A stretch of 64,000 bases of DNA from Acanthosoma haemorrhoidale (Eukaryota; Arthropoda; Insecta; Hemiptera; Acanthosomatidae), in assembly GCA_930367205.1 (NCBI GenBank), contig OV884011.1:122447866-122511865 (forward strand). Reading direction: 5' to 3'. The notes beneath the pieces were generated by a model. It did not search any database. It was not told the DNA's origin and saw nothing but the letters and a program-made list of their open reading frames with translations. Every line of letters starts with the position of its first letter. Within the stretch, counting starts at the first letter, position 1. The translations under genes were made by a program, and so were the position numbers. Positions 26,201 to 57,771 of the stretch are shown here, in pieces.

Positions 26201-29200
26201 AAAAACGAATGTACTTTGAAAGATATGATGTCATTTGTTTTGTTTTTTTCTTTGTCTTTATCTTTTTTATTCTTTTTATGTTTAGTTTTAGATGGAAGTT
26301 TACTTTCAGGCACTGTAATTCTTCTTTCCTCTTCTTTAATTGGTCTGTAAATAAAAATAAAAATTAAAATGTACGATGATAATTGATTTTATTAAAAAAC
26401 AATACAATAAGACCAAAATTAATTCCAGTAAAATATACGATTCAGGAGAATATGGTTAAAAAATTATGCCATTATAAATATTTAGGTGATGTAAATATTT
26501 CAAAAGTCAATTGTAGAAAACATCATAGAATAAAGCATATTTTAAACATATAAATATTGTAATAATTGAAACAAATTAGTTGAAATGAATTAGTTCATTA
26601 ATTTTTTACTATGATACTCATATATATATCATGTAATTTTAAATGCTATTTGGTTGGTGTAATTCTGGATGAATAATATTTCAATAAAACACTACTCAGT
26701 CTCTCCACAATGTTATGTATTAAAAAGGACCTTTACTTCAATAAAAGTTCCACAAAATAAGGTATAATACTTAACTTTATCATATAAACCATCAAATCTT
26801 ATTAGTGCCTGCCAGGCTCAAAACTTAAATGAAAAATTAAAATATAATCATTTTGAAAACAGATTCACAAAAATGGTTTAGAACCAGGGATAGTCTTGTG
26901 TCTTACTATAAGAAAATTGGAATTAGGCTTCAAAAATATGACTACATTCTACTATACTTGGAATAAACATGAAACTATAAATAAGAAAATGAAATCCCTG
27001 ACACTCCAAAATATAGTTAAGAGTAAAAATAATGAAAACGAATGTGTTTGTTTTCCTAGAATAGTAAACTCGACTGATGTACACTTTGATAATAAAGAAA
27101 ATAAACTGTTAAATAAAGGAACAGCAGGGAGGAAGGCTGGGGCTTCAGTTGTTTATAGTTACTTCAGAGAGAAGTTGTTTAGAGATGCTAGAAAGGAGAG
27201 GTTGTCATTTTTGGAGTTGTTTTAAAAAGAGAGGTGTTGATGATAATTTGTTCCAGTTTGCAGATAGAAAATATAGTTGACATGAGGTCCCTTACTTTGT
27301 ATTTACTCATGCCTGTTATTTGTATTTATTACCTCGTATTAGCGCATGCCATTATAGAACCTCATATATCATAAGTGCAGAGTCTACAGGCAGTCATTGG
27401 GACAACATTATATTAAATATTATATTTGTAGCATCAGGATCACAAAACTCAATAATTGGTTGGAGTAAAGGCAAGCATTCGGCAGAAAATTTGCAAACAA
27501 ACTGTAGATGCATTAATTTTTTTTTCTATTTATTTCATTGAAATGTTTGGTTGCCGAGGACTCCTAGAGATTTAATAAATTACAAGTTGAATTTACTTTT
27601 TTTTTTGTTAATAAATTAAAGATATATTGCAATATGTATATATTTTAGTATTCTTATTAATAGCTAATAAAAACAAAAATAAATTAAACTTTTTAACTTA
27701 TTTATTATATTTCAAGAAGGACCCTGACAACCAAATATTTAACATAATATAAATTAAAAAAAAAATAAGACATACTGTTTTTGAGTTTTTTAGAATTTTT
27801 CCGTCTCAACTTGTTTAGCTCCAGCTCAAGTAGTGTTTTGTTGATATCGATGCTCTAACTATAATGCTCATTCAATGGCCTCCTGTAGATTCTGCCAATC
27901 TGACAAGTAATGCTTTTTCGTGAGGGAAAATACGAGGATATTAGAAAATAAGAAAAAATGAAATAAGAGGAAATATGATGTATGAAGGCCCTCATTTCAA
28001 ATATGTTTGGTCATCCGCAAGCTGCACAAAATCGTCATCAACACCTGTCTTCTCAAGCATTTCTAAACTGACAACTTCTCCTTTAAAGCCACTCAAAACA
28101 ACCGAATCCTGGTGTCCTACCAACCACCTGATCTACACTGGCCAAACCCCTTTTTTTCCACACTTGTTTAAATTTGAACTTATTTTCCTTCTTCCAAATT
28201 ACTTCTTAAAAAATAACATTATAATATATCCATGAATTAGACCATGCATAGCAACACTATAGATAGAATTCATTCCATTTCCTGTCTATTGCAAGATTGG
28301 GATAAATAAATACCCAGGCAATGCCTGGAAAGGAACGTTTGTGCGAGATAAACTTGGGAACTACTGAATCCATTTTGAGAATTGATATGCTCCATAAAAT
28401 GTCCGTTAACATGTAGGCTACGTTCACTTTAATTCTGTTAGGGGTTGGATGAACTTAAAATTAAAAATGGGCAAAATGATAGTCTTAATGTGTTTTAACA
28501 AACTGCAGCGTTTTAACAAAGCCACATTTAAAAAGCTAGTTTCAAAATAAATTGTGAGGAGACAACAGTGTGTTAATTCTTCAGAGTAATTTTCTAAATA
28601 ATAAATCTATCTAAATACTACTTTGTAATGCCTCATATATAAATATAAAACACCTTCACAATAATTTTGGCATTCAAATGTAAATACTACTACTTTGTAC
28701 TGTCTAAGATATAAATTAATAAAAAACACTCACTCATCCAGATTAATATCGAGAGCAGCATGTGGGTCATTGGCAGCTCTTATATCAGTGTTTTCATCAC
28801 CCGAATCAACAGCACCATCTGGCATTTCACCCCGCCCTATATAGACTGAAACTTCTCTCTCACCTCCACTGGATTCATCACTTTTCCCACCGTCTTTTTT
28901 ACCTTTCTTTTTTTTCTTTTTTGATCTTTCTTTTGTTGAACTCTTCTTCAGATATTTTTCAGATGATGCAAGGCCTATCAGACATTCAGTCAAGCTTATT
29001 GTCATAACACAATACAAAATTGTAACTAAATATGATGCTACAAATTATCCTGTTTAAATACATCTGTGAAAATAAGTTACCTAACAATATACTATAATTT
29101 TCAACTTACCAGGAATAATAAGTGGGACTGAAAGATCGATAGGAGTCACATCAATATTTTTAATAACATTCGTGTTTGAACTCTTAAGATAATTGGGATT

Positions 29201-32200
29201 CATATCTTGTTCTTGCTTCCTTGCTTCTCTCATCTGTAGAAAAACTACTTATAATGTTGGATCAAAGTTAAAAAATAGATTAACAAACAGAACGCTGTGT
29301 GTCAAGTTACTCATTACTTATGGTGTATGCTATTAAATTAAAAAACTTCATACCTTCGACATTTCTTCAGGAGTGGGCTCAATGGAAGCTTTTCTATCAT
29401 TTGAATTAGACACAGAAAATATTTCAGATAACTGACTAGGAATTTCATCCATTTCCTCATCAGAAGATGAAGATGGAGGATCATTTATCCATGCTTCCAG
29501 ATCAAGCCTAGGGAAAACAAAACTTTCACTTCTAATTAAACAGTTAAAGAGCTAAACAAATTTAAATTTTGGCACATTGTTAGAAAAGAAAAAAGCTCAG
29601 TTTGATTAAAAATTGTTTTGATCACAAAAACTTACAAAAAGAATACTCAAATACGCAAGAATAGTATATACTAAAGGTACTTTATGTGCGAAATGTCTTA
29701 TAATTTGCATTTCAATACCCAAAGACGTGTCAAATATTTTTTGGACTATCACTAAAAGTTTTAATGAAATCCATGGCTGTCAGTGAAGGAACTCTCATTT
29801 TAACTATGAATCTATTTCAGTTATGTGTTAGTTGGTGACAGTATTACTTGAATAGGTAGATAGTAGATGGTGCTGAGGTACAATCATGGTTATGATTAAG
29901 ACTTTTCTTAACGAATCAAGCTTTGTAAGTAAGTATGTGTGTGTTTAACTATAGTCATCAGAAAAAACTTTTCATCACAGTAATAGATTAATAATGAAAT
30001 AACAGAAAGTATTGTAAAATATTTAACTAAAGGGCTGCTTATGTTTTCCTGTACTGCAGGGTCATAAAAATTACATTGTCCAGGCTTTGGTATTTTAACA
30101 TGGAATTTATTATAAAAAGTAATGCTTTCTTTCTACAATCAGTATTCAATAAGATACAATCAAACCTCTATATATTGAACATGAAGGTTACTTGAAACAA
30201 AGTTGATGTATGGCAAGATTGCAATTTTTATCCTTGTCATACTAAAAACAATCACAGTTATTTTTTAGGGTTAAAGAAAAAAAACTGAATGTACAAATAA
30301 ATTTATTTGAAAAATTGTACAAATTAGATATGTGATTGCAGATTTTTTACATACAATAAAACACCACTGAACCGGCCTGGTCCCTGGCTGGGACTGAGAC
30401 CCTGGTCAGTTATCCATTTGGCTGGTTGACCCAAGGTTCCGGTGAAAAATTGATTTTTGTTTTAAAAAAACCTTCATATTTCATCAGGTGTCATGAATAA
30501 ACAAGTAAATAAGAAGTTATGGCAACTCATTTTATAGTAGATTTGTACTATCGAATGAACACAAAAAATTTAACATTACAAAATTACACAAACTTTGAAA
30601 AATTAATGTACACATCATTGTTTAAAAAAATCAGTTATTTAATGAAAAATACATTTTTTCTGTTTTTTACCTTTCAAAGATTTTTTGAAAGCCAAGTTTC
30701 TCCATTTTCTTAAGTTTATCGGACCCAATGTTTTTGAAACTTGTTGCTGCTTAACATATTGCAATACAATTGCTGCAGCTTTTTTTGTTTCGTTGTGTCC
30801 TATTTCTGACGCCTCCAAATCTACTTTTTCACCATCATCTCTGCATTCATCGTCATCTTTACTGGTGATGATACCTATTATTTTCTCCCCCATAGAAAAT
30901 TTGTTTTCGAGTCCACTTTTTGCTATCCATTCTTCAATGTCTTTAAACTGCATTTGGTTCCCACCAGTTAACAACTGCAGATTTAATTTCGATTTCTTTG
31001 TTCTCTGAATCATTGATACTCTCGACCAGATTTTCTATTTGATTTCACAGAGGTAGAAGAAAGCATTTTCTCAAAAGCACTGGCCAACATAAAAATTACT
31101 TCCTTGATGTTTATCTTCTTCACTTTTTCAAGAAACTTACGTCGGTACCGTCTTTTTAAACTCTCACTTCTTTGTCCATAGGCTGCACCAAGTTGGTTAC
31201 ATTTGACAGTTTATATTGGTTGAAACAAACGGCGTTCTGATTGACAGGCATTCAGTTTCAGTCGAGCCTCGGGACTGATACTTGCAGTTGTATTTATGTT
31301 TGAAATTATTGTCTTTTTCTTATTTACCTTCTGCACCTCTCCGTCCTAACCTTTCTAGTTTTAGTCCAGCTCCACACCTAAGAAATGCTTAAAATCGATT
31401 CACTTATTTTTTCTTGTTCTTCAGGGCTTTCTTCTACAAACCAGTTTTCTATCGTAGTGGCTAAGACATCATTCTCCCATACTTTGGCTAATGCATTTAT
31501 ACAAAACGAAGATTTACAAGTTTTCCTATAGGTTCATCATTTTCAAATGCAAAGATCAAGCGCTTCAGGATTTGTTTTCAGTAATGTATTTTCAAATTTT
31601 TAATTACGCCTTGGTCCAAGCTTTGTAATTTAGCAGTTGTATTTGGTGAAGCTTTAATTTCTCCTTACTTTTCATGTTAGCAAAAATGACTACTGTATGA
31701 TTCGTTCCTTACTATTTTTTCTTCCAAAACATTTATTGTTTTTGAAAGTCTAAGTTTTAATGTGCAAACACTTTAAAAAAAACTATAAATAAATAAAACA
31801 TCGTTTTGAGAATAATATTATTATTAATAGGATAATATTATTAAGCGTTTAAATTCAATATGCCATATGTTGACCAAAAACAAAAATCATAGTGTTGCAT
31901 AGTTAGGTAAGTTCTAGCCTGCTTAAAATGAAAGAGGTCATATTCTATTTAGCTCTTGCCAAAAAGTACAGAATCCACATTTCTTTCCAAAAAGGACTAT
32001 ATTGATATTATATTGTTAAAAATTCAAGGGAAAAGTGCAATAAACTTAATTAAAATAATTATTATAACAAATACTAGATTTGTATGCAAAAATAATCAGG
32101 TAAATTGATCCAATAACAAATTAAGGACTGTGAATTTTAGAAATAGCTGGAGATACATCAAGTTCTTCAATTCGCTGAACACTAGACAAATTCAATGTTC

Positions 32201-35200
32201 AATACCATGTCTCTTCTACCCTTTCCTCATCAATGACAATAAGCGGAGGTTGAGGGAATCAAGACAAGGTTTCCACACTATCCCTAGGCTGAGTCCCATC
32301 ACTGTCTTAACATCAGCTAATCTAGACACAGTCACCATAATCTTGAAATGCAGCTCGAGTGGAGTACAAGGAGTATGCTAGTAGTGTATTGTATGTTTTA
32401 TTCATAAATAAAAGTTTGGGGTCCAAAAATTTGAAAAAACAAACAGTAATAATAAAAATAAATACCCTTCAGGAATCTGCACTTTACGTTGAGCTTTTGG
32501 AGCAACAGGGTTCATATCTCCAGCAAAAAGAATAGTGACAGATGGAATAATAGCTGTATCTCCGTCATTCAGCCTCTCTTCAATTAACTTGACAAGCTCC
32601 AAAGCAGAACACGCTCTTTCTTGAACCTCAAGATCTCCAGATCCAACAAACTGTGGAAGCTTCTCCATTACCAGCCTGCAGGTCTATATTAAATTAAAAT
32701 TTGGGATTTTTCATTCAGGAATATTACAATAAATCACTTATAATTATGATAATTTATTTATTGTAATGATATTTTATATACTAAATTTAAATATCCCCCC
32801 CATTTTAAATATAAACACAGCAATAAAAGCATTTTTTTTTTGTTTTTGAAGTACAGAGAATATAACACATAAGTCATCGGGACTTATTCAGAGCACATGC
32901 ACATCCCAAATCACTTGAAAATAAGGCAGGAGGTACCTTATAGAGAGAGCAGAAAGGTGCTTGAATTTTCCCTTTTATTATTTAAATTCATAAAATTAAG
33001 TATTCCTGTAACATCTATACATATTTTTTACTGCCAAATTATAAGCAAATCCAAAACTCTAGTGGTAGAAGCTATAAAGTTATTTTTCTTTGGAAAACAA
33101 TTGTATAGAAATAACAACACTATATTATTGTTTGGACAAAAACTATAATATTATTAAATAAAATTACTTAGATCTATACCTTAATTGCTTCCTCAAGCTC
33201 TGAATTTTCTATAATTTTTGTGAATACTTTAAGTATATTGTGCACATATATAGCTTGTATATGAGGTGGGAGGCAATTAATTCGTCCATTTAACAAAGCT
33301 TCTAAAGTTGACTTTGTATTGGGTAATTCCCTGCAAAATAGGTTAAAGCTATTAACTTTCAATAACATGTATTAATAAATTAGTTGATACATTTCAATAG
33401 TTATAATAATTCTAACTTCATTAAATAATAATTTAAATGTATTAAACAAAATACATTAAAAATTATTTAATATATTAAATTAAATAAGGTTAGGTTCCTG
33501 GAAAACTTCACCTTTTTCTTCAGTTATAAAACATCTATGGTATAAGACATTTTGGGGAGAGGAATTTATATCACTAAGTTAATTAGCAGAAAATTTAATT
33601 CTTAAGGTGTAAAATTAGCTTTATCATACAGATGATAATAAGATTTCTTCAAAAAGGCATTAATATAAATAAAATTGTATAACAAATACAAACTATGATC
33701 TGGTCTGGGGAACTAATGAGTTCAATCTGTCAACGAGCCACAAATGATCAAAACTCGTAAATACCCATGAAACTGAAAACTATTTAAAACCGAAATCATC
33801 TTTCATCAACTACCAAAAATAAGTAAAGCTTCATTTCCAAATCTACAAAACAGATTACACATTTTCCATTGTCAATAAGTGAAACCGAGACCCCTGAAGC
33901 ACAGGAGATGGTTTAACTGTATCTTAGGCTTATATGACTTTTAACTAAAACTATAAAAGTCTCTAAAAACATTACTATTTGATCCGACAATCTATTATTA
34001 ACATTTTCTTTTTAAGTAACCAAAATTTGATTAGATTGATTATAACTAAATTAAATTTATTCATATTATTTAAGTATAACTCTGTACCTCGGAGGGATAC
34101 AACACTATGTCCATTTTCATAACTTTACAGGAGAGGAGTTTTAAACTTTTTTTCAACAAAAAGTGTTATTGGCACAGCTATTTATTGAGTATTGTTGAAA
34201 CAATATTTTACCAGAACATTCTATTTATTGTTATTTACATCATGCAGTTGTTATAAAATGAAAAAAAACCTTTAACTCTGTAATAAAGTCAATATGGAAA
34301 AAAATGGACATAGTGTTGTATCCCTCCGAGGTACAGAACTAAATTAAATTTATTCATATTATTTAAGTATAACTAATTTTAATTTATTAAAAATATTTAA
34401 TTATAATTTTTTTAAATACCTTAACTATAACTTTTTACAATGTATACATATATATACAAAGTAAAACATGTATTAAATTATTGTACAACAACCAGAGTAG
34501 TTTTTGTACTATCATAACAATGTTGCTCATAAAAAATACTTTATTTTTTTTTCAAAAATATTTCATCTCGCGTTGATACAACAAAAAGTATTAAAATCCA
34601 CTAGAATGTACAAATTAAATAAGTGTTTTTTATTATTTTCTAGCAAAACTTTATCAGTTGCAAAATCTTTGCACATTAACTTCTTTAATTTGTCCTTAGC
34701 TGTGGGGGGGAAATCAGAACTTTGTATCTTAAATAGCTTCTGAACTGGAATTTGAAAAATTCAGCAAAACAGCTATTATTTTTTTCACGTTTAATTTTTT
34801 TTTTTTGTATAATTCTCATCATTGTGTTTTAATCAAACGCTATTCAGAATATGAGCTGTTCTAGAGAAAACTTCTAAAATTTCAGATCAATCGAATAATT
34901 TTGTTCAATGGACAAAAAATGATCACCCTGAATGAAAGTAGAGCAAAGAAAGTAGAAAATAGCTCAAACTCGTCAAATGGAAAAAAAAAAAAAAGAATGT
35001 GAACAATTTCAAAGAATTATCTGGAGCACATCAAATGCAATACATTATACAGATTATTTCATTATATCACTACTAATGTGAAAGATATATTTATTTGAAA
35101 ACTAACTAACCCAGCGAATTCACCACATATCCATGCAGCAGCGTATAGTACATCAGCCATCTTGGCAGGTGGCTGAGCAAGCAAATGACTGTTCTCTAGG

Positions 35201-38200
35201 AGAAGAGACATCTGGCTAACAGTGAACGCACGAACGGCCTGAACTCTCACAGCAACATCTACCATCTGTGCCGCAACAAGTTTGCCGTGCTGAGTTCCCT
35301 CCATCCGCGTCAGTTCCACTAAAACACTAACATACCTAAAACAAAATACATAATTAAAAAAATAATACTTACAAAATTAGAAGTAAAATGAAACATCCAC
35401 ACACAATTACAATTATGAATAATTACCATTCAAAATTTGTGATGTATTGATAGTTATTTTGTGAACAAATGTCAATGATTTTGGAAAGAAGTTCGTCCCT
35501 ATATGTTGTCCCTTCAGCCTTATCCATATGAATCATCAATTTCTTAACGATTTCCATAAGTGTTTTTTTAGAAACCTAAAATATTTCATTAAGTAAGGGC
35601 TAACTTAAGACACAGTGTCATATGTCATGTTGTGAAAAAAAAAAAAAGGCATAAGAAAATATTTGAATTACCAACCATCCCATAAAGAAGATCAAGAGCC
35701 CTGAGCCTTATAGATTCATCTTTATCATCGAGGCATTGCATCACGAGATCTTTGTGAGACTGAACTGATTTTGGGTGAGTCTTAAGAATTTTTGACATTG
35801 CCAACAAACCAAGATATTTTACTGTAAAAATATAAAATTCTTAATAAACACCAATTTATACTAAATTATGCTACACAAAGTTTATATATTATATCAAGAT
35901 ATTTAATGAAATAATTTTTCTATTACTATAATATAATTTCATATAGGTTTACATGGAATCACATATTTCAAATCAGAGTGTACAGATTTTTAATTTGATA
36001 CCCTCCTCAAAATAAGAGAAAAATATTTGTTTTTTAATTACAACTAATTAATTTATTTATTTATTTATTAATGATTCTTACTCATACGTTATAGAAATGG
36101 TTATATTTTTCATATCTTATGTTTTTACATCAAATGGGGCCTTCATATAAAATTTCAGGGGACTCGAGGAAGACTTAAGCAAAGGACTATCAAAAAAACA
36201 ATACAGACAGATAGACAGTCACATAGGTGAAAACATAATAGTTTCTGATTTCAAGAAAATCAACGAAACTCTAAAAAATAAGATTTTAGATCATAATTGA
36301 TGTAATAAAGTTTAGTTGGTAAAAAAAATACTTTGATACAATGGTGAGGTAACTGATCCTCAGAGGAAGGGATGAACTGAAGAAGTAAATATCAAGGCTA
36401 ATCATAGGATTAGACTTGACCACACACTTACTGTTATGACACAAATTAATATTGCTCAGTCTACTTTATAATATGGACATGGTAATTATCTTTTGGACTC
36501 AAAAGATTCATTTCTAATATAGATTAATTCTTATTTGATTCTATTATTTTAGATAAAAAAAAGTTATCAGAAGCATGTCAAAAATGATAATGAATTAATT
36601 TATAGTACTGAAAATATTCAGGAGCTTAAAAAAATGTAATTAATAATATTAAAACTAAAATCTCACTGACAGTTTTGATCTGAGTCTTCAATTAATATCC
36701 TCAACTTCTGGACACAGAGCTAAAACAAACAGTATCAAAATTTAGATAGCCGAAATGGTTAACACTAATGATATACCATCATTTACACCATTTAAAAAAA
36801 CACACCTGTATTGAGGCACTATGGTTCGGCATCCCAGATGAGATTGAGATTAGAACTATGAAAAAATCAAAAATCTTTTTACATTACAGATACTTAACGG
36901 GTATAACAAATACACAAACTAAATAATGATATACCAACCAGCGATGACTGTATTGATGCATTCATACAGCAAAGACATTGCTGAAGTGCTATAAAAATCA
37001 ATAACAACTTTAAATTTAAAAAAAATCATATATTAAATTTAAAAGCTTAAAAGGAAAAATTAAGCTATGGTTATTTTCTAATCTTTACTAGAGCATTTAA
37101 ATTCAGGCTAAAAGCTTTTAAAGTACAAAAGCGTGTTATTGTTTATTCATTTGTTGGACAGCTTACTATAGCCAGTGTTCAGAGAAAATTTATTTAAAAA
37201 TTCAAATGCTTGAGCGTGCAGTGAATTGTAAAACTAATATTTTATATGGTGCATCTGAGCAGAAGCAATAATCGCATTCTACAGCCAAAATGGCAAACAA
37301 ATTACTACTCAGAAGCTTGGTGGTGCTCTCCATCGGCCTTTCCGTTTTTGCTGATCAAGTTTAGCCTTATATCTATTATACTAAGAACGATGACAGCAAT
37401 GCGTGTTAAAAAAGATAAATTACAAAGTGAATAATGTTTGAGTGCTTGTTTTTTAGTACTATTTTTGTTAATCAAAGAGCACCCTTTAAAATAAATTAAA
37501 CTTAACAGTTAACACCTAAATTATTAATGGTTAACAATATTAATGTTACAATGTTATCATTTGGGATGTTATTCTGATAAAACTATAATGGGTCTAATGG
37601 AATGTTCTACCCATTATATGAATTCGATCAGCATCAGTAAGCCTATTTTCTTTCTTTCCTAAAGCTATCAATAATTGGACCAAAAGAGTTTTTTCAAATC
37701 ATATAGGATATGCTATCCTCAATCTAATGAAAATTTTTTTTTAGTTCCAATTTTCTTCAAAGCTAATACAATAAATATGTACAAATAAAAAATTTCCATC
37801 AGATTACAAAATAACAATACGGAAAAAAAAGTTATATAACCAAAGCAACTGGTTTCTGTAAAACTGGTTTCCTTATTGGATCAAGTCCAAACATAGGTCA
37901 GGGGTGGCATTTTCAAAAGTTTTTAAGTTGAAATTTTGGATTGGAATCAAAAACAAAAAATGGAAAGATGTGCCGAGTCATATAAAGAAAAACTTAATCA
38001 ATTCAACAAAGCTGAAAAATATATTATATTTAATTAGTAATACTGACTTCAGAATATTTTTTTTGGTATTCAAATCAATCGGTAATACAGTAAATTTATC
38101 TTCGATATAAAAGAGATTTTATGCATATTATGTTTAAATATGATTGACATATTTAAGGTCATATTTTTTATTGACACAAAAAAAACCATTTAAATGCTAA

Positions 38201-41200
38201 AAATTTTAGGACAGAGCCATCTGTTAGACCCATTATAAACGATATGAGGAAACTTATAGGGGCTGATTACCTGTGTATGAGGTTGGTGAGGGGCTCAATG
38301 AGTTTCTTACCAAGACGAGGCTCGAGGGGAGTCAACGCACCAAACTGAAAATACAAATCCTCTCAGCCAATAGCTAAATAAAATCATTCACACGTCTACT
38401 CTAACCCACTCTTCACAGCTATCACACACTACGCTCTAACTATGATCAACACCTACAATATAATATTATAAGGATGTCCATTGTTAACACAGTAAGAAAG
38501 CTGAATGGTTTCTAATGGTATCACAAATTACTTCTGAACCAACTTCTAATGGTATTACAAAATTACTTCCTAACTATAATTACAATTACCAAAGATTAAC
38601 TAGCACCATAATATACCAACATTTTACAACAGTCACATGTAAACATTGAAAGTGAGTTTCTTTCACTTAGTTAGATTTTCTTCTTAGCTCTTCAGACCAC
38701 ATTTACCAAGTTGATGGAGCTTAGATTATTGGACATATACATTTTATTCTTTAAAAAAATAATGTTACTACTGATTTTTGATCACATCAAAATAATTCAT
38801 AAAAAACCAAACCGTATCAAATGATAACAAACCGACAACAAATATCCCTCGATCAGAATTAATGAGCAAATTATTTCAAATACAAGCTGTTATACATCCT
38901 TGAAGTTTCCTACTATGCATCTGTCAGTAGCCTTGAAAAAATTTATTGTTCCCTTCTTGGGTATCTTCTTATTGCCACTATTGCATATTTATTTGTTTCA
39001 AACCTATGTACTAAGAGCTTGTGTACAATCCCTAGCATGTATTAATGGTTATCATCTATACAAATTTCAAAGAAATATTGGCATCAATCACTAGAATAAA
39101 CTTGACGTTAATAAAACGCTTTTCTGCCTTAGTGTAGACTATTAATTTTAGCTCTGATATAGATGTTAACTGGGAATATATGGCAGTAAGTGCACACAAA
39201 CTATTATTATATGGCTCCGAAATTATGAAATGTGCAATAGTATTGTAAAGCACTCACTAAATACCATCTTTTGGGACTGGGAGGCATGTGGAGCTCCACA
39301 ACTCCCTGAACCGAGCACTCTCTGTTGGAAAGTGCTATAACCACACAAGTGGGTACTACTTAACCCTGTCACCAAGCACACTCTAGCCTCAAAGATGTAT
39401 GATAGATAAGCTAATGTTGTGCCAGACTTATTAAATACCTATAAACAGTTAAATACAATGTATAAACCTATGGTGAACACATTAGTGAGCAAATACAACG
39501 CTAAATATTTATGTCCCTCATTTGAATAAATTAGATTTGTAAGTAGATGCAAAAGGAATGGTCCAAACTCTGCTACCTCTCGCAAACATTCTCTGCTATG
39601 AGCCTATAACTTTGTGACAATGCCTTGAATAAATTAAGGCGCCATCCGCCTTTCTAGGCATTCCACACCCTATATCCTTCCCATACATCCTTCAAATAGG
39701 GGTCCCCCCTTAGTGAAAGGCACTTTCCAGCCAAAAATAATTTTCCTTATTTTTCCCACATTCCTATTTTTATAAGTTTGAGAGCTTAGGGGGAAAAAAA
39801 AAAAAAAAAAAAAAAGAATAAATTAAGGGTGAGCCTCATCACCTAGTGTTGTATAAGAACGATGAACTTTTAGCGACAATAAAAATTTTATTATATTTAT
39901 GCACTCCGCCAAATGCATGTAAATGCAGAAAGAGGAGAAATATGTAATCCAATTATTTTATTATTTTTTGTACATTGTATTATTTTGTTTGAGGTTTTGA
40001 AATAAAAAAAAAAGAATAAATTAAAACCCAAAGGTAAACCCCATCACCTAGTCCCTTTTCACTTTACATAATTTTAACTACATATACATTAGTTAGTTTT
40101 TAAGACAATAACTGCTTAAAATGTATCCAATGCAGTATAAGGAGAAATCCACATTGTAAATTTAATTTTTAAATATAATTGCCCAAGGGGTTAAGGAAAA
40201 ACAAACAAACAGAATTTGTATAAAATGTAGTCAAGCTACAGGAAATTTAATGAATCATTTGTAAACACATTCATTTGTAGAATCTATTTATTGCAACATA
40301 AATTAATTTAGGAACAAGGGGATATGAAAAGAAAAAAAATTAAAGAAAGAAAATTCTTTAATTTATTCAATTAATTATGCTTCCAGGGCCTCCCCTCTCC
40401 TCAATTCCTTCACCCAACCTTCAAATAGATAGGTCCCTCCTAGTAAAGGATCCCTTTCACTCCAATAATTTCCAATATTTTTTACCCCATTCTTATATTT
40501 GAAATTGTAAGCTTTGAAAGAAAAAAATGATTGATTTTCTCAACCTGAACAAGCAAACTTTTGTAGTTTTTTCCTAGACACAAGGACTTTTATAATAATA
40601 ACTATTGCTTAATTATTATTTTAGAAGCAATAAAGCATTTTTATTTTATTTGTGCCCATTTTAGAGCAGTTCTGCCAATTGATTGTGAGCATTCCTTTCC
40701 ATTCCAAAGCCTTTCCATCTTCAAACTATGGGCAATATCAAGAGCAATGTTGTTTACATTGAAATAAAAATAATTATACAAAGTACTATAATTATTAGTA
40801 AATATACAAATGAATTACTAAAATATGTATTGCCACATTTATAAATTTTAATCACTACTGTAAACCTAAACCTGTTTGACTTTCATGTTTTGAGCATAAG
40901 CAGTAAAGCGTACTTTTTGGTAAACAGATATATTCCGACCCCGGGAAGGAGTTGGATGACCTTAATAAAAAACAGGTTGTTTTGAAGGGTATAATAAGCC
41001 AGATATGAAACAGGCGGTGTTAACCAAATAGTGTTAACCAATAATGAAATATGAATTTATTTATTGTAATAACCATCAATTTCATTAATCAAGAATTTAT
41101 TAATTACATAAATTTGCATTTATTATTCAATATTTAGTTTATAGTTAATTTTATCATTGTTATTAGCATTGCATGCATATTTTTTTTAGTTGTATTTATA

Positions 41201-44200
41201 TTAATTGTTTAGTTTTCTTTGATTTATAATCCTCCTATTACAAACTATCACTGTAATGTGTCAACTGCATGTACTGTAAACAACGAATAAACCCATATTG
41301 AGGGTTACAATAATAGATTACTTTTCACTTCATTACAAGAAAAATATTGACCTCATGCAGCTGAGGCAATGAGGACTACAAATAGAAAAGAATATCTTGT
41401 ACCAGTAAATCAATAAGACCTCTGAAATACAGAATATATTATTAAATAGGTTTGTGTAATACTTATATAAACTGATAATTATACTACAATATAATAAACA
41501 AATATAAATATAATAAAAAAAAAATATATATTTGCAGGTAATGAACAAAGTTAGAGCAGTGTAAAGAATGTAGCAGTGAGGTTAAGTTATAATGTTACCT
41601 TGAAATGAGCTCAATGAGGGGATGAGTGAGCTTTTGCCCAATCCTTGGTTCGAACATCGTGAGGGCACCGAACTGTAACATAACCCCACCCCAAGGAGGA
41701 CACGCCACACACAAACTATTCGTTAGCAACATGTTATCATTTCAACTTTAAGAAGTGTGCTGTGATCGTTTTGATTATATTTTGAAATAAATCATAATAA
41801 AAAATAATTGATGAATAAACATAAAACAGATACAAAAATAGTTTTACAGTTATCTAATCTCATGTTTAACAGGTTTCTCATAATACAAATTTTTTTATTG
41901 GAATAACTATTATTTATTCTCTCTCTGGAAAGGAGAGAAAGTCTAAGGAATTTTGGTATTCAAATGTTAAAAAACTAAGAAATTTTTGTATCAAAAATTG
42001 GAAAGGTGTTAACATTATTAGATGATCGCCTTGTTTTTTTTTGTGTTTTTTTTCCCCCTCAAGACAACTAAAGAGTAAAGTTGTATGTAAATTTGTCTAA
42101 ACATTGTTTTTCTCATAATATCAGGCTTTTTTTTATTTATACTAACAATATTGACTAAATAGTATATAAATCAAATACAGAACATATAAAGTGAAGATAC
42201 AATACCCATCATCAGGCCTTGTGAGTTTCTTAGGTACTTATTCAAGGTGGTTAAAACTTGAACAGGTTATGCTATTTGACAATTCTTTATTTCATTCATG
42301 AGACTGTCATGGTTACCGAAAAAGTTTTCAAAAAAATTATAAATTAACGAAATGTTGACAAAAAAAAAACTATTGAAATCTGCCAGAAACATAATACATA
42401 CACAAATTCTATTGCAGGCTCTCAAAATTTTATTTTTTTTAATATCTTTTTTTTTCTAGAAAATATCATAAATTTAGATCTTTAATAACTTCGGAACCAA
42501 CTTGGGAAATCTCAGAAACTCTTCTTATCCATAAACGATAATCAGCATAATCAGATTCGGAATAATGAAATATACATACTCAAAAAATTTCAAATCGATA
42601 ATTGTCTTTATCACTGCCATCAAACAACTTACTGTTATCAAATGCATTTTTGCTTATTTAATGGTTACCAATGGTTAATAAATCCTAAATTAGTCTTTGA
42701 TTGCATTCAGAAGTACAGCAAACAAAAAGTTAGTATACATAGTTTTAAGGAATACTAGAACCCATTATTTGTCTGTCTGTTATGCCACGAGCCAACCATT
42801 CATATATCTGTCTGGTGGTTACAATATTAATACTTTTCAAAATTGTTATTTCCAATTTTTCTTTACACACTACAATAATCAAATACATATATTTGTCTCA
42901 TTTATTCATAAAATTTGTAAATTGTTTTCCATCTGAAGGCTTAACAACACATTTAAATAAACAGCAAGAAAAACTGTTTTTATTGTGACATTATTTTAAA
43001 TATTCAATCATCAACCACTCTAGAAATATATGGAATAAATATGATACAATACAGCACACTTCTGATAAGAACCTCTACTTTCATGAAATAATACAATAAA
43101 ATTCCATTGGAGCAAAATAGTGGCACAAAAAATTCAGAAGATTATAGGCTTTAAATCATGTGTGAAGACCAGCAATTGTAGTTAGACTAGATTCTTAGAT
43201 ATCTGCTCATGACCACATAGATAGAGCAAACAGATAAAAAACAAAAAGTCTGATTAGTAAAGAAAATGTCAGCAACAATTCTAGACTTGAGTTAAATTCC
43301 TGGTCATCAGGAAAGGAAATCTGAGATCTTGAACCCACTCGCAATTAAAATAAATAAGTCAATTTAAGCATAGCAACCTGTAGTACATTGCTGCCAACTC
43401 TGAAAAGCACAATTTATGATGTATATCTGTGAGGAGTAAATGAAACCCAACTATTTCTCCCTTAAATCATGAATTATTTACAATTTCATTACATTTTCTA
43501 TCAAAATAAAATGAAATCCCTTAACTTTTAAGAATTATATGAAATATTTATCAGAGATGTTAAATAACGGTGTCTTGCATACTTATGTCTATGTTCATGA
43601 GGAGACTTTGATGGTCTGTGACTTAAGATCAAGTAAATGATCATAACACAAAAAACAAACTTCCATAAAGTTTGCTAACATAGGTATAATTCAATAATAA
43701 AACTAATAATAAGATATTAACTTGGATTAAAGTTTTACAGCAAAGGTAAAATAAAATAAACTACAGGTGAAGTTTGTTACTTATTTCTTCTTGAAATAAT
43801 ACTAAGTAGACCATTTTTTTTTAATAAATGTTTACTATAACGGGAAATAGGCAGATTTACTAAAAAATTAGCCTCAGCTCAATATTGGTCGTCAAGGTTA
43901 GTTATAACATATAAATCCCTCTCTGTTGTTTCACAAACAAGATATTTAACCAAATATTTAAAAACACCAATATCTGCCCTTAAAGCAACACCACTTAGCA
44001 TATATTCATTTTGATATAGTTTATTATAATTATTTAAGTAGCCCTGTAAATTACGACTATCTTATAAATACTGTTCATGACTTAAGGGTTTTATGCTGAA
44101 ATAAATCCCTCTTATAAAAACAAATGATGAAACATGATTGTGGTTTGTACTAATTTATTATCTAGGAATCATTTACTCAGGAAGAAGCTTTCTTCCAAGT

Positions 44201-45873
44201 TAACCATACCCATCGTTCCATATTATAAAATTGGAACAGTTCAAGCAAGATAACCACGATTAATATTCATTTATAAACATATATTAATGTAAAGCCAGAG
44301 ACTGACTTGCAAAAGAACAGATTATAGAGAGCTGACTTATGTCAGACTGAAAGATGTCAGAGCACACAGACTGAACAACTTATCAGTAATGACATTAGCA
44401 GTTCACTGCTCTGCACTGACTTGCAGCACATTTTCATGTTCTATTATAAGTCATTCACAGACTTAAAGCTAACATAGAACCTAAAGTAGCATCTATTACA
44501 TAACTTTAGTATTATGTAAATTCAAATTCCAAGCATACCTCATAGTATGAGTTTACACATATTAACCAAACATCAGTTCTTCTCTTGAATAGTGATCCAC
44601 AATTAATAAATCATCCCTAATAAATCTAGTTTAAATATTCAAGCAACTTCAATATGAAACATTACTCACAAGTTTTATAATTTTAATCAGCATCCAATTA
44701 TTTGTTGATGTAGTCATAAGTTTGAAGAATACAGGAGCTAAGCTTAAGTAATTCTTTGGGTTTTTCCTTGCAAGTTCACATACTACGTTTACAGCTGCTG
44801 ACTGAACACCTAAACAAAACTTTAAATTTAAAACCATACTGTAGAACATTAATTTAATTTTAATGTTATAAAACAAATTCACTACTCTACCAGAATCAGG
44901 ATCTTCTAATTTATCTTTAAGACGAGGGAATGCTGGTCTCAATGCTTCTGGATACCTCAAGAAAACTTTATACATCATCAATACTGCTTTCTTTCGCAAA
45001 TAAGGTTTGGTAGAAGTTAACTATTTAAAAAAATGAAACAAAATTGTATTCAGTTAAAATTGATTTACCAATTTAAAAAAATAAATAAAAAATATTACCA
45101 ATGTCATTATATCATTTGATAAATCCCTAGCTAAATCAGTACTAATGAAACATGAAAGAGCAGACAGTGCAAGCCCAGCGTCATACTGATTTTGACTGTT
45201 TAAATCCTTACGCACCATATTTGTGGTCAACATCAACAACTGAAAATTACAAATTTTGAGATAAGTATGACATATGTACCTTAATACCACAGTATAACTG
45301 TTTATAGTAATGTATTATACCTCAGTGTCAGCATGAAAGCTTTGACTCGAAGCTAAATAGCCAATGCGTTTATATGTAAACTTCGAAGAACTCATTACCT
45401 CGATGACATTAAATCCAGCCCAGCTCATGTCATATCCAAGCATTTGCAACTATACAAAAAAGTTTTTAAACCAAATGGAAAACTCATTCAATTTATGTAA
45501 TTACAATAGAGCAAGAAAAATTACATATGTTAACTTGGCGACGGCAGTAGCTTTGACCGCAAGATTGTCCTGTCTTAGTTCCTGCTTTATTTCATCAATA
45601 CATTGTGCTATGTACTTGGCCTGTGTATCAAATGTAAACAATACATTCTAAATACATATTTGTAGTTAAAAATCAATTATCAAAATAATGTTGATGAAAC
45701 CAACTAATGTATAAATTTAACTTGAAACTGACTTTTAAAAACATATAAAGCAAATTGTAAAGAAAACCATAGCTTACTTCATTATCTTTATTATTTCTTA
45801 TTCCACGGACCAAATCAGTTAAATTTTTATCAAACATACGTTCTAGATTACCCTTAACCTTCTTTAAAGCCAT
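14047..45873 (-). CDS. AP3D1: AP-3 complex subunit delta (26 coding positions, one with alternative exons)
   Basis: Large subunit of the AP-3 adaptor, which sorts cargo from endosomes to lysosomes and lysosome-related organelles (garnet in flies). Exons, 5' to 3': 45778-45873, 45525-45620, 45321-45449, 45099-45239, 44891-45020, 44670-44809, then 41599-41672 or 38271-38344, 36939-36988, 36806-36855, 36671-36719, 35676-35821, 35427-35575, 35111-35335, 33180-33330, 32466-32683, 29354-29507, 29110-29233, 28734-28974, about 27776-27852, 26215-26344, 25991-26138, 22737-22900, 22524-22661, 20256-20393, 19052-19219, 14047-14262. The start MALKKVKGNLERMFDKNLTD matches the family N-terminus; an A at -3 and G at +4 support this ATG. 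Order: adaptin alpha-solenoid trunk, acidic then lysine-rich hinge, C-terminal ear-like region ending MAATSTVLS. Total about 1180 residues, close to vertebrate delta. All junctions keep phase except exon 19/20. Confidence 0.95.
14510..15510 (+). mobile_element. Decayed pogo/Tigger-like DNA transposon remnant
   Basis: The plus strand near 14955-15050 reads WMESDKNVKGYKQLTNDKIV, which resembles the transposase tail of Tigger-type elements (a tryptophan, acidic residues, then FQxMxDEEIV). The right edge has CCCGTGGATAACTGCAGAT near 15480, similar in style to Tigger termini. Frames are broken and no full domain is seen. Element boundaries are approximate. Confidence 0.4.
16265..17126 (+). mobile_element. 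Solo LTR (family L1), 862 bp with 5-bp target duplication
   Basis: The LTR begins TGTTGTGGCC and ends CCCGACA. It is flanked on both sides by ATAAA (16260-16264 and 17127-17131), a typical 5-bp duplication. It is more GC-rich than its surroundings and carries no reading frame of its own. Its 3' part (CCTCCCCACTTTGGGG) recurs at 58740-58755, where a tRNA-Trp-type primer binding site follows the LTR end. That places the family with tRNA-Trp-primed, CsRn1-like elements of the gypsy superfamily. It lies in AP3D1 intron 25. Confidence 0.85.
17385..18712 (+). mobile_element. Inactive mariner transposon, complete ends
   Basis: A 1328-bp element bounded by TA on each side (17383-17384 and 18713-18714). 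The terminal inverted repeats begin CAAGGTTTGATCAAAAAGTA; the right copy has one mismatch in that stretch. Between them are broken pieces of a mariner transposase on the plus strand: FGELAMSKARVYEWYGHFKE (helix-turn-helix), then a CIITGDKTWV segment with the first catalytic aspartate, then LHHDKAPAHTS and PPYSLDMAPCDFF with the other two. Stops and frameshifts separate them, so the copy cannot make transposase, but its ends look usable by a related enzyme. It sits in AP3D1 intron 25. Confidence 0.9.
19052..22900 (-). CDS. AP3D1: AP3D1 exons 22-25, C-terminal region
   Basis: Exon 22 (22737-22900) encodes KRTTVNENDMLGDLVNIKDG and on to LAKNNTISL. Exon 23 (22524-22661) encodes DYHVRHAGGMECQAVAYLVI and on to NDIQLINE, with donor GTAATT. 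An open reading continues past that donor to a stop, so intron retention would truncate the protein. Exon 24 (20256-20393) encodes LGSVEVRRKLGLLLSPGASG and on to RATVSYMQL. Exon 25 (19052-19219) encodes CTNGEQLEDKLDVWLTIPLA and on to VPPQTFQQ. The pattern follows the vertebrate C-terminal domain. All four exons have complete codons at their 3' edges. Confidence 0.88.
19965..20130 (+). repeat. Dispersed repeat tail, family P, copy 3
   Basis: Contains TTAGCAACATTC, GCAGAAAGCGCTAGG and CCCACAACCAGCAATTA, shared in order with 12290-12480. It lies in AP3D1 intron 24. Confidence 0.45.
21010..21046. repeat. Alternating purine-pyrimidine tract (GT)n then (GC)n
   Basis: Nine or more GT units run straight into GCACGCGCGCGCGCGTGC. 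The whole 37 bases alternate purine and pyrimidine, the class most prone to form Z-DNA. It lies in AP3D1 intron 23. Confidence 0.9.
21830..22195. repeat. 183-bp tandem duplication
   Basis: The segment starting AAACGCAAAATCAGTACG at 21841 repeats at 22024 with almost no differences. The period is 183 bp and there are two units. Each contains GAATTCATGTTTTTGCAGTC. The near-identity implies a recent duplication inside AP3D1 intron 23. Upstream DNA (21598-21735) has a short open frame of unknown origin. Confidence 0.85.
23020..23110 (+). repeat. tRNA-derived SINE-like head
   Basis: A perfect box B (GGTTCGAATCC, 23064-23074) lies about 30 bases after a box A-like TTAGATGTAACTTTAGTGG. It is followed by a T/A-rich tail. 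No anticodon-stem structure good enough for a working tRNA was found, so I treat it as a SINE in AP3D1 intron 21. Confidence 0.5.
23310..23660 (-). mobile_element. Diverged LTR fragment, family L1
   Basis: Shares GGAATGACCA, CACTCAGTATCTAAGG, AAAGGCGAGTGTGAACC and AGAGGTGCAGAGGTA-type phrases with the minus-strand LTR at 58850-59672. Both ends are lost and the copy is strongly diverged. Confidence 0.6.
24040..24160 (+). repeat. Dispersed repeat tail, family P, copy 4
   Basis: Closest to copy 1: CATATGACTTTTTATTTTAG then CAACTGAATATGACAGCTTA and GAGCTGTCAAACGTTTTTGT. The GACAGCTTAGAGCTGTC core can fold as a small hairpin. Confidence 0.5.
24650..25400 (-). mobile_element. Second decayed mariner-like transposase (different lineage)
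   Basis: Read on the minus strand, MAGFREQHMAVKFYFLLGEN (about 25360) is a typical mariner N-terminus. Further on come GQTVNQVFYLEILKRLHNSS and, near the end, SSPWDFFLFPKMKRDLKGNL, the usual region just past the last catalytic residue. Several stops break the frame. A short inverted match (GTACAAAGTG near 24663 and CACTTTGCATTTTTTTGTAC near 25723) may mark the ends, but no TA duplication could be fixed. It is distinct in sequence from the 17385-18712 mariner. Confidence 0.75.
25991..27852 (-). CDS. AP3D1: AP3D1 exons 19-21, lysine-rich hinge
   Basis: Exon 20 (26215-26344) encodes PIKEEERRITVPESKLPSKT then a KHKKNKKDKDKEK-rich run. Exon 21 (25991-26138) encodes ENNDHLHSDYNEMPLSSQND then DRKKKKKK and SKHSKK. 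Both have good splice sites. Exon 19 (about 27776-27852) is less certain. The reading IDINKTLLELELNKLRRKNS then KKLKN fits the lysine-rich character, but its acceptor (GTTAGAG) is weak. Its best donor (A then GTATGT) leaves one base too few to enter exon 20 in frame. A hidden exon or a one-base sequence error is possible. Confidence 0.75.
26940..27140 (+). pseudogene. Possible Penelope-like element ORF fragment
   Basis: An open frame of 109 codons contains PRIVNSTDVHFDNKENKLLN followed by KG. This resembles the phrase (VNLTDxxFxxxExxLLxKGLKYN) seen near the start of Penelope-like element ORFs in arthropods. No reverse transcriptase motif follows. It lies in the intron between exons 19 and 20 of AP3D1. 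Confidence 0.35.
28734..29233 (-). CDS. AP3D1: AP3D1 exons 17-18, hinge
   Basis: Exon 17 (29110-29233) encodes MREARKQEQDMNPNYLKSSN and on to PIDLSVPLIIP. Exon 18 (28734-28974) completes a glycine and encodes LASSEKYLKKSSTKERSKKK, then an acidic stretch and NDPHAALDINLD. This parallels the vertebrate hinge (VPLKVPG ... PYRALDIDLD). The donor is GTGAGT, leaving GA. Confidence 0.92.
29354..33330 (-). CDS. AP3D1: AP3D1 exons 14-16, end of trunk and start of hinge
   Basis: Exon 14 (33180-33330) encodes ELPNTKSTLEALLNGRINCL and on to IKVFTKII-type residues ending in AIK. Exon 15 (32466-32683) encodes TCRLVMEKLPQFVGSGDLEV and on to FAGDMNPVAPKAQRKVQIPE. Exon 16 (29354-29507) encodes LDLEAWINDPPSSSSDEEMD and a serine/acidic stretch, ending EEMSK. 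The 2.96-kb intron between exons 15 and 16 carries a decayed Tigger-like transposase and an LTR fragment. Confidence 0.93.
30360..31700 (-). mobile_element. Decayed pogo/Tigger-like transposase, interrupted by LTR debris
   Basis: Minus-strand reading near 31660-31580 gives NTTAKLQSLDQGVIKNLKIH, the conserved PNTTxxLQPLDxGVI block with the last catalytic aspartate of Tigger/jerky-type DDE transposases. Downstream near 30900-30760 is a segment ending KKAAAIVLQYVKQQ, like the Tigger C-terminal helix. Frames are broken, and part of an LTR (31310-31385) seems to lie between the two blocks. It is within AP3D1 intron 15. Confidence 0.6.
31310..31385 (+). mobile_element. Short LTR fragment, family L1
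   Basis: CTGCACCTCTCCGTCCTAAC and the following TTTTAGTCC and CCACACCT match the order of phrases at 16573-16635 of the solo LTR. Both ends are truncated. Confidence 0.5.
34044..34374. mobile_element. 255-bp MITE with perfect 36-bp inverted repeats and 38-bp flanking direct repeats
   Basis: The element is 34082-34336. Its first 36 bases (starting CTGTACCTCGGAGGGATACA) are an exact reverse complement of its last 36. It encodes nothing. Immediately outside, 34044-34081 and 34337-34374 are identical 38-bp direct repeats (starting AACTAAATTAAATTTATTCA). The inverted repeats mark it as a non-autonomous DNA transposon. A 38-bp target duplication would be far longer than the usual 2-10 bp. It lies in AP3D1 intron 13. 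Confidence 0.9.
35111..35821 (-). CDS. AP3D1: AP3D1 exons 11-13, central trunk
   Basis: Exon 11 (35676-35821) encodes KYLGLLAMSKILKTHPKSVQ and continues to LDLLYGM. Exon 12 (35427-35575) encodes VSKKTLMEIVKKLMIHMDKA and on to YITNFE, with a tryptophan codon split TG/G. Exon 13 (35111-35335) encodes YVSVLVELTRMEGTQHGKLV and on to LYAAAWICGEFAG. All are near-identical in pattern to vertebrate delta. Phases agree throughout. Confidence 0.95.
36671..36988 (-). CDS. AP3D1: AP3D1 exons 8-10, three small exons
   Basis: Three exons of 50, 50 and 49 nt sit within 318 bases. Exon 8 encodes TSAMSLLYECINTVIA. Exon 9 encodes, after a split valine, LISISSGMPNHSASIQ. Exon 10 encodes LCVQKLRILIEDSDQN. Acceptors are TTATAG, CATAG and TTTTAG; donors are GTTGGT, GTGTGT and GTCAGT. 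The phases join exactly (G/TT valine, then an even junction, then T/TA leucine into exon 11). Exon 9 is short enough to be missed by automatic gene finders. The protein segment continues the alpha-solenoid. Confidence 0.92.
38271..38344 (-). CDS. AP3D1: AP3D1 alternative exon 7B (canonical version)
   Basis: A 74-nt exon with acceptor TTTTCAG and donor GTAATC, encoding FGALTPLEPRLGKKLIEPLT then NLIH and leaving AG. This matches the vertebrate delta trunk almost residue for residue, so it is the ancestral form. It lies 1.3 kb upstream of exon 8 and 3.25 kb downstream of exon 7A. Phase 0 entry and phase 2 exit are the same as in 7A, so either one can be used alone. Skipping both would join exon 6 to exon 8 out of frame and reach a TGA after eight codons. 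Confidence 0.93.
39640..39815 (+). mobile_element. Retroposed 3'-end fragment A with long A tail
   Basis: The segment ends in about 23 A residues (39794-39815) and is flanked by GAATAAATTAAGG on both sides (39627-39639 and 39816-39828). A diverged relative lies at about 40378-40520 (CCTTCAAATAG, CCCTCCTAGT, TTTTACCCCATTC). The parent element is unknown. Confidence 0.75.
39829..40013 (+). mobile_element. Jockey-like element 3' end (family J), copy 1
   Basis: Starts GTGAGCCTCATCACCTAGTG and contains AATGCATGTAAATGCAG with AAGAGGAGAAATATGTAA. It ends in an A run. It is flanked by the same GAATAAATTAA at 39816 and 40014. The sequence matches the 3' UTR after the reverse transcriptase remnant at 61550, so it is a 5'-truncated copy of that family. 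It sits in the intron between alternative exons 7A and 7B. Confidence 0.8.
40025..40200 (+). mobile_element. Jockey-like element 3' end (family J), copy 2
   Basis: Starts next to the third GAATAAATTAA and reads AAAGGTAAACCCCATCACCT and, later, AATGCAGTATAAGGAGAAAT with a shortened palindrome. It is more diverged than copy 1. The 3' limit is uncertain. Confidence 0.65.
41599..41672 (-). CDS. AP3D1: AP3D1 alternative exon 7A
   Basis: A 74-nt exon with acceptor TGTTACAG and donor GTAACA. It encodes FGALTMFEPRIGQKLTHPLI then ELIS and leaves AG, completed by the C that opens exon 8 (serine). It shares 15 of 24 residues with exon 7B and occupies the same place in the protein. It is the copy nearer to exon 6 and the more divergent from the vertebrate sequence (FGALTPLEPRLGKKL). 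Joining it to exon 7B would shift the frame and produce a TGA five codons in. It is therefore a mutually exclusive partner, not an extra exon. There is no stop or splice-site defect to suggest a pseudo-exon. Confidence 0.85.
44670..45873 (-). CDS. AP3D1: AP3D1 exons 1-6, N-terminal trunk
   Basis: Six exons carry the start of the trunk. Exon 1 encodes MALKKVKGNLERMFDKNLTD and on to NNKDNE. Exon 2 is AKYIAQCIDEIKQELRQDNL plus LAVKATAV-type residues. Exon 3 includes LQMLGYDMSWAGFNVIEVMS. Exon 4 has LTTNMVRKDLNSQNQYDAGL. Exon 5 has RKKAVLMMYKVFLRYPEALR. Exon 6 ends NNWMLIKIIKL. All donors and acceptors are canonical. Exon 5 ends with the first base of a glycine codon completed by exon 6; the other junctions fall between codons. 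Introns here are short (78 to 281 bases) compared with the 1-5 kb introns downstream. Identity to the vertebrate delta trunk is very high by eye. Confidence 0.95.
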
Positions 45874-57300: not shown

Positions 57301-57771
57301 CTCAGATGGAAAAGCACCTAAATTGAAGATAGAAAGTTCTCTGATTCACATACCAGCCCTATCACTAAATTTTATCTTTGGCTAATAATTAATAAAGCCT
57401 AAAGACCCTAAGGCTCTTAGGGTTAATAAGTTAATTTTTATTGTTATTGATAAGTTAATAACAAAAAAAAATCAATTTTTGTTTTAGATTGCTCATTACT
57501 CTGTTGTGGAGATGACAAAGGATCACTGTGGCTCTACAGTTTAAAAGAAATTGTTAAGAAAACGGATGCATTATCCCAAACGAATATTGAACCATCTGTG
57601 ATTATACCTTGGCCTCACCTTACCGACCATTATAATGACAAAAAGAGGAAATTGAATTTAGATGTTTATGATATTGTTATTGACAAAGTTGTTGTAAATT
57701 CAAGTGGTGAATACATGGTTGCTGTTACCAATAATAATTTAGTTTGCATATGGAAAAACAATAATTTTTAA
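51386..57771 (+). CDS. LRWD1: WD40 protein, LRWD1/ORCA-like, six exons, 5' end unresolved
   Basis: Exons 51386-51487, 52188-52330, 52415-52620, 53648-53864, 55906-56162 and 57488-57771 join in frame (1209 nt, 402 codons plus stop). The product reads YEPLKFLRCHSKNNDSADLQ, then VWDCAFKPSDD, FVVATCGGNSVCFIDCETGK, SLFSLAWTKLPIG, LYFHPTDRGILF, FDFAFCPSTNLLLSSCNDG and, at the end, VAVTNNNLVCIWKNNNF. The ATCGGNSV/IDCxTGKVL and SLAWT phrases are those of LRWD1 (ORCA), which binds the origin recognition complex and heterochromatin marks. EED-like WD proteins are related but fit less well. The first exon opens with AGA after a strong T-rich acceptor, so an upstream exon is likely; the leucine-rich repeats seen in vertebrate LRWD1 were not found. 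ATG 51395 is the earliest in-frame start visible. Every junction keeps phase. Confidence 0.85.
57010..57130 (+). repeat. SINE-like repeat tail, family S
   Basis: Contains TTTCTCTTTGGTTAATAATT and AAACAGTGGGATTACTTACA. The same end is found at about 46630-46690 (TCTTTAACCAATAATTTTGC then AACAGTGGGATTACC). It is inside the last intron of the WD40 gene. Confidence 0.5.
57292..57405 (+). repeat. tRNA-derived SINE, family S
   Basis: TAGCTCAGATGG (57298-57309) is a consensus pol III box A. TGATTCACATACC (57342-57354) sits at the right distance for box B with mismatches. The following CAGCCCTATCACTAAATTTT and TCTTTGGCTAATAATTAATA parallel the repeat at 57010. The body lacks a proper tRNA fold, so it is a SINE head rather than a tRNA gene. 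Confidence 0.6.

Follow-up and report, generated by a model that had tools for sequence, protein, structure and literature searches.

The delta subunit of AP-3 is a core part of the lysosome-sorting machinery, and in Acanthosoma haemorrhoidale (Hemiptera, Acanthosomatidae) its gene raises the question of whether one segment of the protein trunk can be made from either of two alternative exons. The window that we analyzed, a stretch of 64,000 nucleotides (nt) of contig OV884011.1 (positions 122,447,866 to 122,511,865), carries on its minus strand an AP-3 delta gene with two versions of exon 7, named 7A and 7B, between exons 6 and 8. A first-pass annotation had proposed that the two are mutually exclusive. 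We consider it likely that they are a true mutually exclusive pair, derived from an old tandem duplication of exon 7, in which 7B has the ancestral form, 7A is a constrained variant and one of the two is joined in each transcript. The exons concerned, in window coordinates, are the following.

22524..45873, minus strand: model of the AP-3 delta gene, made up of 21 constant exons and the 7A/7B pair, with the ATG at 45873, matched to AP-3 delta chains of the Protein Data Bank (PDB)
44670..44809, minus strand: constant exon 6 of the exon model, whose donor is common to both choices
41599..41672, minus strand: exon 7A, FGALTMFEPRIGQKLTHPLIELIS, most simply the derived alternative copy, with AG/GT borders, 74 nt, phase 0/2
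38271..38344, minus strand: exon 7B, FGALTPLEPRLGKKLIEPLTNLIH, apparently of the ancestral type, with the same residues as the AP-3 delta-1 chain 9c58_D at 245-268
36939..36988, minus strand: constant exon 8, whose acceptor is common to both choices and which holds the stop met if neither 7A nor 7B is used

The exon model was built by hand from the sequence and checked by translation; it ends short of the full ear domain at its 3' end. The 21 constant exons together with one of 7A and 7B translate into 981 open codons. For comparison with PDB chains, 259 residues of joined pieces, with some exons omitted, were used as the gene query. The best chain was the AP-3 delta-1 chain of 9c58 (E 3e-135), which we take to be the human protein, and the delta chain of 7p3x, presumably the budding-yeast protein, matched at E 3e-53. 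The far weaker match of AP-1 gamma (E 1e-22) favors AP-3 delta over the other adaptins. Just downstream of the last modelled exon, at 21832-22195, a 183-bp unit is repeated in tandem in 2.0 copies that are 99% alike.

How do the two exons fit into the message? They are neighboring homologous exons of equal length (74 nt) and phase (0 in, 2 out), both with canonical AG and GT borders, and the introns across exon 6, 7A, 7B and exon 8 measure 2,997, 3,254 and 1,282 nt. The two are identical at 45 of 74 nt and at 15 of 24 residues (16 of 25 with the junction serine), with no indel between them. The coordinates, lengths, phases, splice borders, peptides and residue identity given in the first-pass annotation were all reproduced, and translation bore out what it had claimed of the reading frame: a message with both exons stops at a TGA that is the fifth codon into 7B, the split codon counted, a message with neither stops after eight codons of exon 8, and just one of the two, whichever it is, keeps all 981 codons open. 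Frame-shifted messages with an early stop are lost by nonsense-mediated decay, and the both-exon and neither-exon messages of this gene would be expected to share that fate, as in exclusive pairs of the frame-and-decay type. Two other types of exclusivity were considered and rejected. Pairs governed by linear steric hindrance have under 50 bp between donor and branch point, according to the accessible text of PMC5740500, and 7A and 7B are 3,254 nt apart. An incompatible pairing of U2- and U12-type sites was also set aside, since the donors (GTAACA and GTAATC) and acceptors (TACAG and TTCAG) are by eye of U2 type and neither exon appears to have sites of the minor-spliceosome type. As the spacer is too long for linear steric hindrance, the sites look U2-type and only one-of-two splicing gives a protein, the reading frame is the certain safeguard of exclusivity.

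Could 7A be there by accident? Of 100 open segments of the form AG-74 nt-GT, from both strands of the window, 7B itself matched 7B at 24 of 24 residues, 7A matched it at 15 of 24 and the third-best segment at only 4 of 24, which excludes a chance resemblance of 7A to 7B. All 22 modelled exons, with exon 7 represented by 7B, were also compared with the whole window at a threshold of E ≤ 0.01; exon 7 alone had a second place, namely 7A. This result bears on the idea that 7A was put in the intron by an artefact of assembly or by the mis-joining of a second AP-3 delta locus: both it and the lack of any N in the window speak against such an event, which we regard as extremely improbable. A third copy of exon 7 was sought and dismissed. 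In a tblastn search of the window with a longer 7A query, the known places scored E 7e-13 and 1e-6 and the next E 0.026, none of the best 40 matches gave a convincing further copy, and the exon search at E ≤ 0.01 gave no third place either. With 300 nt on either side compared in register, the likeness of 7A and 7B stops about 6 nt or less from the exon borders. Scans of virus and prokaryote collections revealed no relative, as expected (0 matches; 23 pattern matches, 0 confirmed; 1, unconfirmed).

Which copy is the older one? With the junction serine counted, 7B is identical to 9c58_D over residues 245-269. Because of this identity, the nine differences are most simply read as changes on 7A (P250M, L251F, L255I, K257Q, I260T, E261H, T264I, N265E, and H268S), with 7B as the old form and 7A as the derived copy. 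At the positions that 9c58 and 7p3x have in common, 7A alters one of nine, by the conservative L255I, versus eight of the 16 others (one-sided p 0.06, not significant). The same positions matter for the proposal that 7A is mainly a poison exon, whose inclusion with 7B stops the frame and lowers the AP-3 delta level while its protein sequence is secondary. Regulated inclusion would indeed cut the protein, since double inclusion ends at the TGA in 7B. A poison exon, however, need not keep an adaptin segment, and 7A retains eight of those nine common positions together with the exact length and phase; this role for 7A appears very unlikely to us. The first-pass annotation had also seen a loss of two positive charges in 7A, which was an error. 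One lysine is lost (K257Q) while K258 is kept, so that 7B has three Lys/Arg residues and 7A two, with two acidic residues in each; position 257 is Ala in the more distant delta chain 7p3x.

Has 7A been kept by selection? The two exons differ at 9 of 25 first, 4 of 25 second and 16 of 24 third codon positions, with saturation at the silent sites. In a pairwise codon model, a ratio of nonsynonymous to synonymous rates (omega, or dN/dS) of 1 is rejected with a doubled log-likelihood difference (2dlnL) of 14.1, the free fit lying at the boundary where omega goes to 0 with no finite time, and this result could stem from constraint on 7B alone. A branch model was also fitted in which 7B was held under constraint, the two branches had equal time and kappa was set to 2; omega on 7A was below 1 in all six settings (2dlnL 4.4, 4.5, 10.7, 10.7, 8.3, and 7.4). 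Clearly finite values (0.26 and 0.23) at moderate times were obtained only in the two settings that took codon frequencies from the gene itself. The dN/dS check of the two copies, which the first-pass annotation had proposed, thus rejects omega = 1 and places that of 7A below 1, with moderate force. In addition, dead copies were simulated, with no indels allowed and every change placed on a single branch. In none of the four settings did more than 1 of 50,000 runs combine an open frame with 15 or more of 24 residues kept and 29 or more base changes. Taken together, the codon tests, the simulation and the likeness ending at the exon borders argue with moderate strength that 7A is an old duplicate kept by selection, and constraint on it is supported rather than proven.

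The splice sites of the two exons suggest how a choice between them might be made.

41673..41692, minus strand: acceptor of 7A, G-rich, with 6 pyrimidines in 17 positions and 9 G, the lowest pyrimidine count of the 22 acceptors in the model
38345..38364, minus strand: acceptor of 7B, with 8 pyrimidines in 17 positions, the second lowest of the 22

In the remaining 20 acceptors of the model, 9 to 13 of the 17 positions are pyrimidines, and the chance of 7A and 7B being the two lowest of 22 is 1 in 231. As the pyrimidine tracts are poor at both acceptors, the choice of exon probably depends on regulators and may follow the tissue. 7B is likely to be the default exon and 7A, with its G-rich tract, the regulated form.

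Several points weigh against the use of both exons, and they have to be considered together with the alternative that 7A is an unused exon copy, dead or dying, and that every message takes 7B. The 7A acceptor is without a pyrimidine tract, and the residue changes lie most simply on the 7A side. The odds of a dead copy hinge on how many of the 29 changes fell on 7A itself. With about 17 changes, a simulated dead copy often looks alike, the frame being open in 62% of them and at least 15 of 24 residues being kept in 38%; the corresponding values are 49% and 2.7% with about 25 changes and 41% and 0.2% with about 31. Furthermore, the selection tests rest on 24 codons with saturated silent sites, the conservation split of the 7A changes falls short of significance, and BLOSUM62 scores are negative for just four of the nine changes, so their effect on function could be slight. 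When scored with a weight matrix derived from the other sites of the gene, the sites of 7A and 7B come within the range of the other exons. The weakness therefore lies in the pyrimidine tract and not in the score of the whole site, and the weak-acceptor result depends on the measure used. On the other hand, a dead copy at about 25 changes or more keeps at least 15 of 24 residues in at most 2.7% of runs, the codon tests place omega of 7A below 1, and 7A has kept both splice sites and acquired no indel in 74 nt. On balance we find it unlikely that 7A is a dead copy.

The preferred reading is thus still that of a mutually exclusive pair. Exon 7 of AP-3 delta would have been duplicated in tandem long ago; 7B would have retained the ancestral sequence, and 7A would have changed, under constraint, into another version of this part of the trunk. 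Each transcript would contain one of them, joined between exons 6 and 8, with regulators making the choice, and messages with both or neither, being shifted in frame, would presumably be lost. An RNA stem may hinder the joining of 7A to 7B, and its candidate arms are given here.

41522..41596, minus strand: candidate stem arm 1, which begins 2 nt inside the 7A 5' splice site, with a predicted duplex of -56.0 kcal/mol with arm 2
38389..38468, minus strand: candidate stem arm 2, ending 44 nt short of the last base of the intron that precedes 7B

The long-range stem, which would pair the downstream flank of 7A with the upstream flank of 7B, is a candidate from one genome and is put forward as a lead only. 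An inverted repeat with arms at 38433-38467 and 41523-41557 (35 nt, 74%) ranked third among 104 pairs, of which the best 25 were considered. Only one of the six flank pairs, 7A-downstream with 7B-upstream, beat all 100 shuffles (-91.3 versus a mean of -72.7); the other five were equalled by shuffles in 90, 72, 72, 7, and 8 of 100. A dock-selector arrangement was provisionally set aside, as no single dock common to two selectors was found among these six pairs. Windows of 60 nt from the exon 6-8 region were also compared pairwise (31,878 pairs), and the strongest duplex again joined the 7A-downstream and 7B-upstream flanks (-46.6; next -43.3). Window pairs near both exons make up 225 of the 31,878 (0.7%), and the place of the stem is rarer than its strength: block-shuffled regions gave -38.1, -38.6, -38.1, and -47.2, so that one of four reached -46.6, which speaks against the stem. 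Arms of 100 nt gave -53.6 (z -4.2, 0 of 1000 shuffles), which is optimistic since the windows were set after the repeat had been seen, and with wider arms, of 150 and 240 nt, 4 and 5 shuffles in 1000 reached the stem value. When 100-nt windows were paired on a fixed grid (2,775 pairs), none attained -53.6, but by a thin margin: other pairs had -52.9, -52.3, and -51.3, two of which touch 7A or 7B. On its own the 7B flank folds at -39.7, which leaves a net gain of -24.3 for the long-range pairing. Elsewhere in the window the arms had weak matches (E 0.19 or more), and therefore they belong to no evident repeat family there; no tRNA and no Rfam family at gathering score was found in the window.

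If formed, the stem would reduce the unpaired RNA between the 7A donor and the branch region of 7B to a short stretch, so the 7A-to-7B join would be blocked despite the 3.25 kb between them. With one end 2 nt inside the 7A donor and the other 44 nt ahead of 7B, it would hide 3 kb of intron and mimic steric hindrance. That exclusivity is enforced by RNA folding in this manner seems unlikely to us; if the stem is real, it would provide a test of whether folding imposes exclusion across a long intron. Another candidate pairing close to these exons is a complement of 25 nt (80%), whose core of 14 nt is perfect by eye, between 38213-38237, just after 7B, and 37584-37608, in the next part of the intron; it was set aside as possibly due to chance.

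What would the swap change in the protein? The residue numbering of 9c58_D equals the delta numbering of Kaufman et al. 2026 (PMC13178560) at E313, D314, and D316. In the part of that article available to us, the delta residues mutated for ARF1 contact are 77, 110, and 111 as well as 157, 159, 163, and 187, and those mutated for lattice contact are 313, 314, and 316 as well as 342, 371, 378, 379, and 386. None of these falls within 245-269, a segment that follows the second ARF1 site (157-187) along the chain and precedes the delta-mu3 lattice residues (313-316). The suggestion that the two forms differ in partner or cargo binding is thus not shown, as the segment lies outside these mutated residues. 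Changed trunk packing or a changed sigma3 contact is, speculatively, an equally likely effect. Because the segment lies between the ARF1 and lattice sites, a swap of 7A and 7B could be tested in the cell assays of PMC13178560. In the mutually exclusive reading as originally put forward, the anatomy is therefore well supported and selection on 7A moderately so, whereas the charge argument was overstated and no cargo or partner effect is claimed.

The window contains further features outside the AP-3 delta gene. At 1009-1931 on the plus strand, two open stretches match the 7tm_1 model of rhodopsin-family receptors (E 4e-22 and 5e-14), probably a G protein-coupled receptor gene split by an intron. 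A match to the LRWD1 WD domain at 57454-57768 (plus strand, E 4e-11) possibly marks an LRWD1-like plus-strand gene beside AP-3 delta, with other open stretches from 52341; two of these, 53578-53865 and 55889-56227, had no Pfam match. A Mos1-type helix-turn-helix at 17572-17811 (plus strand) scored 22.4 bits, below the cut-off of 24.1, and is possibly part of a decayed mariner element. Fragments resembling non-LTR (long terminal repeat) retrotransposons were seen by eye at about 47.5-47.9 and 59.6-61.5 kb, of which 60286-60516 was tested and had no Pfam match.

Is such a pair already known? Judged by titles and the beginnings of abstracts, no report of alternative exons in AP-3 delta was found in the literature searched, in line with the first-pass annotation, which had been aware of none. 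The words 'garnet' and 'AP-3' are absent from the main texts of the Kassiopeia paper (PMC3923563) and PMC3303723, and 'AP3' is absent from the main text of PMC5740500. As far as we have looked, the AP-3 delta pair is new as an instance of a class of mechanism that is already known.

In FGFR2, an IAS2-ISAR stem forms in the intron between the mutually exclusive exons IIIb and IIIc, and double-inclusion messages decay. This geometry resembles that of the candidate 7A-7B stem, which is predicted from sequence only and belongs to a different gene family. The docking and selector systems of Dscam, 14-3-3zeta, Mhc, and MRP1, as far as described in the accessible portion of PMC6071210, likewise use long-range pairing of the flanks of alternative exons, which is predicted here; they pair outer with internal introns, whereas the AP-3 delta pairing would lie within the single intron between 7A and 7B. 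Exclusive pairs that arose by tandem duplication (PMC6071210, and the human set of PMC5740500, both in the text available) are, like 7A and 7B, adjacent homologous exons of like length and the same phase. The 74 nt of 7A and 7B cannot be divided by three, a property that the available text of PMC5740500 gives for 377 (60%) of its human clusters. The present pair differs from the known tandem pairs in its gene and position, and its 3,254-nt spacer rules out plain steric crowding. The ubiquitous and neuron-specific AP-3 complexes, according to the part of PMC10235903 at hand, differ in beta3, mu3, and sigma3 forms from different genes, with delta common to both. In that case AP-3 is diversified through separate genes, while here it would be delta itself, by splicing. 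If exclusive splicing is true, this lineage would have two forms of the very subunit that the ubiquitous and neuronal complexes have in common, and the spliced variant of the delta trunk would represent another way to make two AP-3 coats.

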